Shown: piece by piece, positions 30,549-57,437 of the stretch | Layout: every line of letters starts with the position of its first letter | Position numbering within the stretch: the stretch's first letter is position 1 | NCBI GenBank assembly: GCA_003280495.1 | Contig: QCET01000001.1 | Location: forward strand, 1 to 64,000 | Length of the DNA stretch: 64,000 bases | Direction: 5' to 3' | From: Pelagibacteraceae bacterium AG-359-E06 | Lineage (GTDB): Bacteria > Pseudomonadota > Alphaproteobacteria > Pelagibacterales > Pelagibacteraceae | Program-made: the position numbers and the translations under genes | The notes under the pieces: model-generated | What the model saw: only the letters and a program-made list of their open reading frames with translations | Database searches by the model: none | What the model was told of the DNA's origin: nothing

Positions 30549-31343
30549 TTATGCTGCGAATGTATTATTCTGTTTTTCTTGTTCTAAAATTTCGTTAGCA
30601 AGTCTCTCGTAAGCTTTTGTTCCACTGCAATTCTTATCATAAGTAATAACTGGTAATCCATGTGATGGCGCCTCTGATATTCTAATATTTCTAGGTATAA
30701 CGGTTTTGTAAACCTCGTTTGGAAAATACTTTCTAGCCTCTTTTTCAACCTCGTAACAAAGTTTATTTCGTTTATCAAACATGGTTAAAACTATTCCTTG
30801 TATAGATAAAGCAGTATTTAAGTTTTGTTTTATTCGATTTATAGTTTTAACTAATTGTGACAAACCTTCTAATGCAAAAAATTCAGATTGCAAAGGTACT
30901 AACACTGTATCAGACCCTACCAAGGCCATTATTGTTAAAAGACTTAATGATGGTGGACAATCTACCAATATATAATCATACTGATTTGACTGAGCTAAAG
31001 GTCTAAGTACATCATTAAGAAAAAATGCTCGTTTTCCATCCTCAGCTACTTCCGTTTCAAAACCGGATAAATCAACATTAGAAGGTATTACATCTAAGTT
31101 TTTAATTGAAGATTTGTAAATATAAGGATTCAAAATTGTGTCTTTGGAAATCATTAATTCATAAATAGTTTTGTTTCTTTCCTTGACCTCAATTCCTAGG
31201 CCTGTTGATGCGTTTCCTTGAGGATCTAAATCAACCACTAATATTTTTAATTCAGTATTTGCGAATGCACATCCTAAATTAATTGCGGTCGTAGTTTTTC
31301 CGACCCCTCCTTTTTGATTAATAACAGAAATAATTTTAGTCAT
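30549..31343 (-). CDS. parA: Chromosome partitioning ATPase ParA
   Basis: VINQKGGVGKTTTAINLGCAFA; DYILVDCPPSLSLLT. Confidence 0.98.
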   Translation of the reverse strand: MTKIISVINQKGGVGKTTTAINLGCAFANTELKILVVDLDPQGNASTGLGIEVKERNKTIYELMISKDTILNPYIYKSSIKNLDVIPSNVDLSGFETEVAEDGKRAFFLNDVLRPLAQSNQYDYILVDCPPSLSLLTIMALVGSDTVLVPLQSEFFALEGLSQLVKTINRIKQNLNTALSIQGIVLTMFDKRNKLCYEVEKEARKYFPNEVYKTVIPRNIRISEAPSHGLPVITYDKNCSGTKAYERLANEILEQEKQNNTFAA

Positions 31344-31963
31344 GCGCTAATCCTTTTCACACTATTTATTACGAAAACTTTCGAGGCTTTATTTGTAATA
31401 CTATCGTGTAACTCACAATTTATTTCCCAATATTTCTTTGCATCCAAAATTTCATTTTTATATTTTTCACCCTTCAACAAAATCAGTTTTTTAAATTTAA
31501 TGTTGCTTTTATGTAAAATATTTAAAAACGTTCCTAATGGCTTAAAAGCTCTTGCTGTAACTACACTGTAATTTTTATTGCGAACCATACTAACATCAGC
31601 ATTATGTATTTTGATATCAAGATCAAGCAATCTTATTGCTTCTTTAAGAAATTTGCACTTTTTTGGGCTCTTTTCCAATAAATTCACATGAAAATCGAGT
31701 TTTTTATCCACTTTTATTAAATCTAAAATAATGCCAGGTAAACCAGCACCAGTTCCAATATCTAATATATTTTCATCTTGATTGCTTATGTACTCGATAA
31801 TTTGAGCTGAGTCCTCATAATGTCTAATATATGCCTCTCGTTCGGTACTCTTAGAAATTAGAGACATTTTCTGATTATTATTCATCAAGCATTGATGGTA
31901 TTGGTACAATTTTCGAGATGTTTCACGTGAAACAAAGCTGTCTAGGTATTTTGAGCGAATCAT
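31340..31963 (-). CDS. rsmG: 16S rRNA (guanine527-N7)-methyltransferase RsmG
   Basis: NILDIGTGAGLPGIIL; VTARAFKPLGTFL; between mnmG and parA. Confidence 0.96.
   Translation of the reverse strand: MIRSKYLDSFVSRETSRKLYQYHQCLMNNNQKMSLISKSTEREAYIRHYEDSAQIIEYISNQDENILDIGTGAGLPGIILDLIKVDKKLDFHVNLLEKSPKKCKFLKEAIRLLDLDIKIHNADVSMVRNKNYSVVTARAFKPLGTFLNILHKSNIKFKKLILLKGEKYKNEILDAKKYWEINCELHDSITNKASKVFVINSVKRISA
31919..31934. promoter_or_regulatory. parS: parS centromere-like site
   Basis: Perfect palindrome TGTTTCACGTGAAACA, identical to the consensus bacterial parS, inside rsmG. Confidence 0.93.
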
Positions 31964-54758: not shown

Positions 54759-55342
54759 TTTAATTGCTCTAAATATTTATTAATTTGCTTAATAGGTAAA
54801 CCCATTATCGAATTCATATCTCCATTAATTTCAGCGAACAATTCAAGCCCACCGGCCTCTATCTGATAAACTCCGTATTTTTTCATTATCCCTAAGTCTA
54901 ATCTACTTAAATAATCATTAAGTTCTTTGTCAGACAAATTTTTCATCACAAGCTTACAAGACTCATGAAAATGAGAAATCATGCTTCCACCCTTACAAAT
55001 ACAAGCCGCAGTATGAAGATAATGTGTCTTATTATTTAGTTTTGATAATATAATTTTAGCTTCCTCTTTGGATTTTGGTTTGCTTATATTTTTTCCATCT
55101 AAATCTAACAGCGAGTCTGCGCCTATAATAATATCTTGAGGATATTTATTACTAATTTTTGAAGCTTTAAGTTCTGCTAAACTTTTAGCAATTTGAAGGC
55201 ACGTTGCATTTTTAGCTTCCATTGAAATTTTAATTTCCTCTTCATCTATTCTCGAAGGTTCTTGCTTAACCTGATATCCATTTTCTTCTAGAATTTTTTT
55301 TCTTATTCCACTTTGGGAAGCTAAGATCACGTTTTTTATCAT
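54755..55342 (-). CDS. maf: Maf-family nucleotide pyrophosphatase
   Basis: VILASQSGIRKKILEENGY; DIIIGADSLL; GVYQIEAGGLELF. Confidence 0.95.
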   Translation of the reverse strand: MIKNVILASQSGIRKKILEENGYQVKQEPSRIDEEEIKISMEAKNATCLQIAKSLAELKASKISNKYPQDIIIGADSLLDLDGKNISKPKSKEEAKIILSKLNNKTHYLHTAACICKGGSMISHFHESCKLVMKNLSDKELNDYLSRLDLGIMKKYGVYQIEAGGLELFAEINGDMNSIMGLPIKQINKYLEQLK

Positions 55343-56154
55343 TATTTTTTTGTAATCTCGTAAATTTTAATTATTGATGCGGCTGTTTCTTCAACAGATT
55401 TACGCGTAACATCTATTATTGGAATTTGTCGTGATTTAAACATTTTTTTTGACTCTTTGATTTCGTTATCTATCGTAGGCTGATCAGTATAAGTGGAGGA
55501 TTTTTTGTCATTTAGAATATTAATTCTTGTTTTTCTTATATCAGTTAAACGCCCTGTCTCTATTGTAAAACCTATTTTAACGGCTTTACTATTAAAAACT
55601 GTTTCTGGAAGTTCTTGATGTATAACTAGCGGAATATTTGAAACCTTATAACCCCTTTCTCCTAAATAAATAGAAGTAGGTGTTTTACTCGTTCTACTTA
55701 CGCCGAGGATAATAATATCTGCGTTAACAGCGGTATCGAGTTTTTGCCCGTCATCGTGCGCTAGTGTAAATTGCATTGCTTCTATTTTTTTGTAATATTC
55801 TTTATTAAGAGCATGTTGCCCACTTGGAACATGTGATGCCTTGGTTTTAAAAATTTTTTCGAAATCAGGGATAATATGATCAAGAATACCAAAGCATGGT
55901 ATTGATTTTGACTTGCACTCACTAATTATGTGATTTGTGGTCTGCTTTTCAACCAAAGTATAAAGAATTATTGGATTTTCCACTTCTTTGCATTTTTCCA
56001 TTAATTGAGCTGTCTGTGCACTAGTCCTCATGAATGCAAAATGGTGAATTTTGTAATTAAACTTTGGAAACTGAGCTTTTATAGCCAGAAAGATTCTATC
56101 CAGCGTTTCTCCTGTTGAGTCAGATACTAAAAAAAAATTATATAACTTGTTCAT
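55342..56154 (-). CDS. ppsR: PPDK regulatory protein (DUF299/PpsR)
   Basis: NFFLVSDSTGETLDRIFLAIKAQFP; ILGVSRTSKTPTSIYLGERGYKVSNIPLV. Confidence 0.96.
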   Translation of the reverse strand: MNKLYNFFLVSDSTGETLDRIFLAIKAQFPKFNYKIHHFAFMRTSAQTAQLMEKCKEVENPIILYTLVEKQTTNHIISECKSKSIPCFGILDHIIPDFEKIFKTKASHVPSGQHALNKEYYKKIEAMQFTLAHDDGQKLDTAVNADIIILGVSRTSKTPTSIYLGERGYKVSNIPLVIHQELPETVFNSKAVKIGFTIETGRLTDIRKTRINILNDKKSSTYTDQPTIDNEIKESKKMFKSRQIPIIDVTRKSVEETAASIIKIYEITKK

Positions 56155-56423
56155 AAAGTTGTTGATTGATTTATATAACTCAAATTTATCCCTAGGCTAT
56201 CAAAATTAATATGGTTTTATAAATATTTCTCAAATTTTATCCATTATTTTACTAAAAGTATAAAAGTTATTAATAGTTACTGAATATGGTTATTATTTGT
56301 TTAAAATAGTTATAAATTCACCATTTTGGATGTTAATAGTTTTGTATATAGTGTTTATTAAAAGTTAGTCACACAATTAACCATGCCTAATAATACTAAT
56401 ACTTTAATACATATATATTTAAT
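56155..56423. other. oriC: Candidate chromosomal replication origin (oriC)
   Basis: Divergent 269-bp very AT-rich gap between ppsR and hemE; two CTCAAATTT(T)ATCC repeats with DnaA-box cores (56186-56194, 56237-56245) and three AATAGTT repeats (56272, 56305, 56335). Confidence 0.7.
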
Positions 56424-57437
56424 ATGAGTAATTTAATTTTAGATAAATTCGATAAAAACAAAATCAACGAAGACGCAGTACCTATTTGGTTAATGAGGCA
56501 AGCAGGAAGGTATTTACCAGAATATAAAAAAATTAGATCTAAAAATAAAGATTTCATAAATTTTTGTTTAAATGTCAAAGATTCAAGCGAAGTAACATTA
56601 CAACCAATAGAAAGATTTAATTTTGATGCAGCAATAATATTTTCAGATATACTTTTAGTTAATTATGCAGCTGGTCAAGATGTAAAATTTAAAGAAAATT
56701 TTGGACCAGTATTAAAAAAACTAGACAACAAAGCTTTTCTAGCAATCGAAAAAAATATTTTTATTGATAAACTTTCTAATTGTTACAAAGCAATAAGAAA
56801 TGTACGTAATCTATTACACAAAGACAAAACACTTATTGGATTTGCAGGGTCTCCTTGGACATTACTGGTATACGCTCTAAATTTAAAATCTCCAAAAAAT
56901 GAATTTAATATGGATTGTAAAGAAGATGTAATATTAGAATTATTAAATAAGTTTATAAATCTTGTAAGTTGGCATTGCATCGAGCAAATAAAAAATGGAG
57001 CAGATGTGATACAGTTGTTTGATAGCTGGGCGGGTATTATTAAAAGAGAGAATCTTAGTCTTTTTTGTGAAAATCCGAACAAGAAAATAATTGAAAACAT
57101 AAAAAGAGTATATCCCTGTGTTCCCGTTATATGTTTTCCACGAAATATTAAGGATAACATAAATTCATTTGTGGCTAACGTTAAGCCAGATGGAATAAGC
57201 ATAGATTTTAATACAAATATTGAAAAACTAGATATAGACTCTAACGTTGTCTGCCAAGGAGGCATGAGACCAGACCTTTTAACCGCGGACAATGAAAGTG
57301 AAATAATTAATGAGGCAAAAAAATATTTAGATTTCTTTAAAAATAAAAGATATATCTTTAATCTAGGTCACGGAGTACTACCACATACTAAAATTAAAAA
57401 TGTGGAAAAATTAGTTAATTTTGTTAAAAATTATTAA
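56424..57437 (+). CDS. hemE: Uroporphyrinogen decarboxylase
   Basis: PIWLMRQAGRYLPEYKKIR; FAGSPWTLLVYAL. Confidence 0.98.
   Translation: MSNLILDKFDKNKINEDAVPIWLMRQAGRYLPEYKKIRSKNKDFINFCLNVKDSSEVTLQPIERFNFDAAIIFSDILLVNYAAGQDVKFKENFGPVLKKLDNKAFLAIEKNIFIDKLSNCYKAIRNVRNLLHKDKTLIGFAGSPWTLLVYALNLKSPKNEFNMDCKEDVILELLNKFINLVSWHCIEQIKNGADVIQLFDSWAGIIKRENLSLFCENPNKKIIENIKRVYPCVPVICFPRNIKDNINSFVANVKPDGISIDFNTNIEKLDIDSNVVCQGGMRPDLLTADNESEIINEAKKYLDFFKNKRYIFNLGHGVLPHTKIKNVEKLVNFVKNY

Follow-up and report, generated by a model that had tools for sequence, protein, structure and literature searches.

A predicted chromosomal origin of replication in the ppsR-hemE gap of a SAR11 bacterium, with a candidate DnaA-box/DnaA-trio module

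The ppsR-hemE gap and its described counterparts

Among the alphaproteobacteria, the origins of Caulobacter crescentus (Cori) and Rickettsia prowazekii are both flanked by hemE and COG1806 (PMC1914354), while in Bacillus subtilis the basal unwinding system of oriC has been described as tandem DnaA boxes 6 and 7, a GC-rich spacer and a run of DnaA-trios, with a search rule, here called the basal unwinding rule, of at least three N-A-N triplets no more than 16 bp from a DnaA box that carries no more than two mismatches (PMC8287927). The divergent gap between ppsR and hemE analysed here shares with the Caulobacter and Rickettsia origins the flanks hemE and COG1806 (DUF299), the richness in AT and the presence of DnaA-like boxes (PMC1914354). 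It differs from them in its length (269 bp compared with approximately 385-400 bp or more), in lacking a TTAA-N7-TTAA CtrA site, a match to the IHF consensus of E. coli and GANTC, and in its boxes, which in SAR11 gaps are of the TTATNNACA kind and mostly not TTATCCACA. We do not treat the absence of a CtrA site as disqualifying, because in several accepted alphaproteobacterial origins of the hemE/COG1806 kind such sites vary or are missing (PMC1914354).

On the evidence set out below we consider it very likely that the gap is the oriC of this SAR11 subclade III bacterium, and that it is of the alphaproteobacterial hemE/COG1806 kind. SAR11 ranks with the most abundant groups of marine bacteria. 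In the papers that we searched, no SAR11 oriC has been mapped to the base level; predicted-origin databases such as DoriC were beyond the scope of that search, and a prediction for Pelagibacter may exist there.

The window, by which we mean the whole 64-kb stretch of DNA analysed, is the first part of contig 1 (105,300 bp) of an 842-kb draft genome that comprises 34 contigs and is 79.6% complete. Judged by ppsR identity its nearest named relatives are AG-894-A09 (98%), HIMB114 (78%) and Fonsibacter (approximately 60%), and we take the organism and these relatives to be SAR11 subclade III. dnaA was not found among the 34 contigs, probably owing to incompleteness, and for this reason the skew evidence was taken from relatives, namely the single-contig sequences of the Fonsibacter-like G009 (almost whole) and 400 kb each of the HIMB114-like G001 and of G003 and G015, which are Pelagibacter. 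The divergent layout reported in an initial annotation of this DNA, made from sequence alone, was confirmed by coordinates and by the families PF03618 and PF01208: ppsR, maf, aroE, coaE and dnaQ run leftward, and hemE, hemH, a UPF0093 gene (hemJ) and rho run rightward (Table 1). Here DUF299 is taken to be the same as PF03618, the ppsR family. All ppsR-hemE gaps measured across the family were 246-289 bp long, and the AT content of the window's gap is above the genome average, at 19% GC compared with approximately 24-37% in 2-kb windows.

Table 1. Coordinates of the predicted origin, its elements and neighbouring features in the window
Feature	Position	Strand	Remarks
Predicted oriC, divergent intergenic gap	56155..56423		269 bp, 19% GC; skew switch at about -1 kb (relatives)
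ppsR	55342..56154	-	PF03618 kinase/pyrophosphorylase; COG1806/DUF299, flank of Caulobacter and Rickettsia origins
hemE, uroporphyrinogen decarboxylase	56424..57437	+	PF01208
Left-end box position by ppsR, TGTTGATTG, eroded	56160..56168	-	homologous to TGTTTATAA, TGTTAATAA and TGTGGATAA (L009) in relatives
TTATCCCTA, first box of the initial annotation	56186..56194	+	aligns with TTATACA/TTATCCATA in most subclade III relatives
TTATCCATT, second box of the initial annotation	56237..56245	+	TTATCC core kept in own genus only
DnaA-like box CTATTAACA	56331..56339	-	one mismatch from TTATNNACA; aligns with TGTTTATAA/TGTTAATAA-type boxes of some relatives
DnaA-like box TAATAAACA	56352..56360	-	one mismatch from TTATNNACA
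Putative DnaA box A of tandem pair, TTAGTCACA	56365..56373	+	one mismatch from TTATNNACA; TTAACCACA/TTAACCCCA in relatives
Putative DnaA box B of tandem pair, CAATTAACC, degenerate	56374..56382	+	position-homologous; TTATTAACA/TTATAAACA/TTATTCACA in relatives
4-bp spacer ATGC, boxes to trios	56383..56386	+	within spacer range of PMC8287927
Predicted DnaA-trio run CTA ATA ATA CTA ATA CTT	56387..56404	+	complement 3'-GAT TAT TAT GAT TAT GAA-5', middle A in 6/6
Almost pure AT stretch, trios to hemE start	56405..56423		probable unwinding region (role inferred)
Perfect parS TGTTTCACGTGAAACA	31919..31934		24 kb left of gap, beside parA
parA-like gene	30549..31343	-	sequence motif NQKGGVGKTT; adjoins parS

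DnaA boxes and a putative unwinding module

Boxes of the form TTATNNACA, that is, a DnaA box in which any base is allowed at the two central positions, occurred 83 times in 34 gaps, compared with 10.3 +/- 3.1 in dinucleotide shuffles, a count that overstates the significance because related gap sequences are not independent. They were present in 32 of the 34 gaps; the two gaps without an exact copy, those of the window and of L097, both belong to the window's genus. No TTATNNACA cluster was denser than that of the gap in the 400 kb of G003 and G001 or anywhere in the whole G009 genome; in G015 the gap was not the densest. Box-cluster or profile matches away from the gap in G003 (-51 kb) and G015 (-49 kb) were rejected, as they fall within or between coding genes of unrelated function.

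The window's own gap contains no exact TTATNNACA and no TTATCCACA, only sites with at least one mismatch, and its box positions are recognisable yet eroded (CTATTAACA, TAATAAACA, TTAGTCACA, CAATTAACC, TGTTGATTG). Domain IV of DnaA, which binds the box, is intact in the sister species G149, the nearest relative, and matches that of G001 at every residue of the recognition segment. In the window's genus either weak boxes may suffice or the specificity of DnaA may differ slightly. We raise as a tentative possibility that this genus has lost the exact DnaA boxes and kept the module of tandem boxes and trios, initiating via low-affinity boxes together with the unwinding module, or with a shifted DnaA specificity; this streamlined bacterium would then have a naturally minimal oriC. 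AATAGTT, GANTC, GATC and TTAA-N7-TTAA showed no excess, or a weak one only, over the 34 gaps, the CtrA site TTAA-N7-TTAA being in weak excess in the relatives and absent from the window's gap. Likewise, the IHF consensus WATCAANNNNTTR had no match in the window's gap, although this is the consensus of E. coli and may not hold for the bacterium studied here. We also rejected TTAACCAT, presumably a CtrA-like half site, which is present once in the window's gap, where it overlaps box B, but was found in just 4 of the 34 gaps.

A conserved block lies beside hemE and consists of two abutting 9-bp boxes, a spacer of approximately 4 bp and a run of CTA/ATA triplets; the window's copy of it is at 56365-56404. 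This arrangement is like that of B. subtilis oriC in the abutting 9-bp boxes, the spacer and the at least three N-A-N triplets beginning 3'-GAT-5' (PMC8287927), and unlike it in that the boxes of the window are degenerate and the predicted trios alternate GAT and TAT instead of repeating GAT. Under the basal unwinding rule the window qualifies by way of box A, which differs from TTATCCACA at positions 4 and 5, and not by way of box B, which differs at more than two positions; the run of six triplets is 13 bp away from box A and 4 bp away from box B. A 40-bp profile trained without the window's genus gave 23.4 bits at 56365, with 9.0 for the next site in the 105-kb contig, and under the same leave-genus-out training the block ranked first also in G149, in G001 and in the whole G009 genome; with Pelagibacter removed from the training, it came only third in one of the two Pelagibacter genomes and fifth in the other. 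Taken together, these features suggest that 56365-56404 is probably a DnaA-box/DnaA-trio unwinding module, and footprinting and marker-frequency tests could be aimed directly at this 40-bp element.

By analogy we infer that DnaA binding, strand opening and initiation occur at the gap. DnaA would bind the box-like sites across it as well as the tandem pair at 56365-56382, from which a DnaA-ATP filament would extend onto one strand of the triplet run at 56387-56404 and pull the duplex open towards hemE, into the AT-rich stretch. Helicases would then load and two forks would leave, one along hemE-rho and the other along ppsR-dnaQ. As judged from the sequences compared, the gap is almost certainly an origin; its hemE-side location is already usual for alphaproteobacteria, and its working parts would be the conserved module for DnaA binding and DNA opening. 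Kept at approximately 270 bp over an order of AT-rich genomes, the predicted origin also provides a natural series in which to follow the drift of DnaA boxes and trios.

The initial annotation had likewise placed a chromosomal origin in this gap, and strand-corrected skew and gap elements conserved across the order support that placement, although the motifs on which it relied are not those that we find conserved. Its direct repeats, CTCAAATTTATCC at 56179 and CTCAAATTTTATCC at 56229, are present, but are no more than chance would give and are not conserved, and the three copies of AATAGTT are found at 56272, 56305 and 56335, but 34 related gaps hold 10 copies against 9.5 expected. In 2,000 shuffles of the gap, some 7-mer occurred at least three times in 71%, and an exact repeat of at least 9 bp in 75%. 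ATATGGTT does occur twice, at 56284 and, rather than at 56211, at 56209. Its two box matches, TTATCCCTA and TTATCCATT, start 51 bp apart at 56186 and 56237 as described, but of the two TTATCC sites the first alone has a box-like TTAT(A/C)CA site aligned with it in most subclade III relatives. The one relative with CTCAAATTT(T)ATCC intact is the nearest (L001/L097); the third genus member has it in eroded form. Since the cited repeats are at chance level for such AT-rich sequence, the motif argument as written is weak, while the conclusion nonetheless appears right. The annotation itself had named lack of conservation of the repeats as evidence against an origin, and these repeats are indeed not conserved; the alignment of the gap in relatives that it proposed instead revealed conservation of the TTATNNACA-type boxes and the DnaA-trio module beside hemE. 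It is these elements, differing from those cited, that would bear the mechanism.

Loss of hemE in one genus bears on the question of whether the gap is merely a divergent promoter or regulatory region for ppsR and hemE, its motifs being sites for transcription regulators. By position it is a divergent promoter gap in which transcription of hemE must start, and promoter-like -10 hexamers are possible in the triplet run. However, the locus of the HIMB114-like genus no longer contains hemE, and the ppsR-proximal segment of approximately 270 bp, with its end boxes and triplet run, is still kept before rho, which favours an origin, as a promoter for hemE is dispensable there and an origin is not. 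The sister family, where ppsR was not found, keeps the module beside a different left-hand gene, in the homologous place and in canonical form (e.g. TTATAAACA AATTCACAG GAC CTACTACTACTACTA). As a regulatory function would moreover leave the skew switch and the inversion pivot described below unexplained, we regard this reading as very unlikely. An origin at this locus finds a parallel in the predicted origins of Wolbachia, Ehrlichia and Anaplasma, where a hemE-adjacent origin was likewise kept after one flank was rearranged (PMC1914354); there it was COG1806 that was lost from the locus, whereas in HIMB114-like SAR11 hemE was lost and ppsR stayed.

The sole hemE-like match in the HIMB114-like genomes (L003-L007, L016 and L017) is remote, at 31-32% identity (e.g. 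G001:C1:718106-719044), and suggests that a gene of another lineage has taken its place. At the order level, several genera of the sister family (L171-L182) carry a near-perfect CTACTACTACTA trio run upstream of hemE, and a TCCACCTG or TTCACCTG element recurs in this family approximately 170 bp upstream of hemE.

Position relative to GC skew, dnaA and parS

Cumulative GC skew described a V in four relatives, with a broad floor reaching from 0 to +32 kb from the gap. The raw minimum lay at +18 to +32 kb in all six sequences, including the window's own contig (approximately 20 kb right of the gap), and could be taken to indicate an origin elsewhere within approximately 35 kb to the right. Gene direction is itself a source of skew; we therefore modelled the third-codon-position skew of each gene with its strand and side as covariates, and the break then fell at -1 kb in G009 (interval -6 to +7), at -3 kb in G001 (interval -18 to +3) and, broadly, at -11 kb in G003; G015 gave no usable signal in this fit, and four-fold-site skew was uninformative. 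The combined optimum was -1 kb, with penalties of 4.9 at 0, 19.5 at +18 kb and 28 at +31 kb. As the fit resolves only to about the size of a gene, it can hardly separate -1 kb from the gap. The rightward offset thus vanishes in the informative complete genomes once gene strand is modelled, and the region to the right holds neither a recurrent box cluster nor, by profile, a conserved origin-like block, making an origin there highly improbable. Two contigs of the window's own genus, too short to decide, gave strand-corrected fits that were uninformative or favoured other positions, that of G149 penalising position 0 by 6.8 to 9.5. Location at the skew switch, as in an oriC of the hemE/COG1806 kind, was found for the gap in the complete relatives after strand correction; this was the GC-skew check that the initial annotation had proposed, and the switch is at the gap and not at dnaA.

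That the origin should instead lie near dnaA, in line with many SAR11 genome maps, is scarcely credible: although oriC sits beside dnaA in many bacteria and published SAR11 alignments begin at DnaA (PMC12421898), dnaA is found on opposite sides of the gap in different genera, at approximately -70 to -86 kb in subclade III and g7 and at +62 to +75 kb in Pelagibacter, either dnaA position is heavily penalised in the combined strand-corrected fit (approximately 66), and no leading box cluster was found at dnaA in G001, G003 or the whole G009 genome. Published SAR11 maps are rotated to dnaA, yet dnaA would lie 62-86 kb from the origin proposed here, on a side that differs by genus. At least one growth-rate tool, GRiD, assigns fragments that carry dnaA to the origin.

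Bacterial inversions commonly centre on the origin. Between SAR11 genera, approximately 150 orthologues have swapped side and strand around the gap, over at least 100 kb of flanking sequence, and the position sums of the swapped pairs, mostly -9 to -28 kb, place the inversion axes within approximately 5-14 kb of it. Skew and synteny in the relatives thus agree in showing the location. Between G001 and G003, a core of approximately 18 kb (about -16 to +2 kb) that holds the gap has the same orientation while both flanks are inverted, implying what would be two nested inversions between SAR11 genera. parS sites with at most one mismatch lie 7-25 kb from the gap in 6 of 6 sequences, the window's perfect copy among them (Table 1). 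parABS is found left of the origin in subclade III and right of it in Pelagibacter, seemingly as part of the origin-centred inversion.
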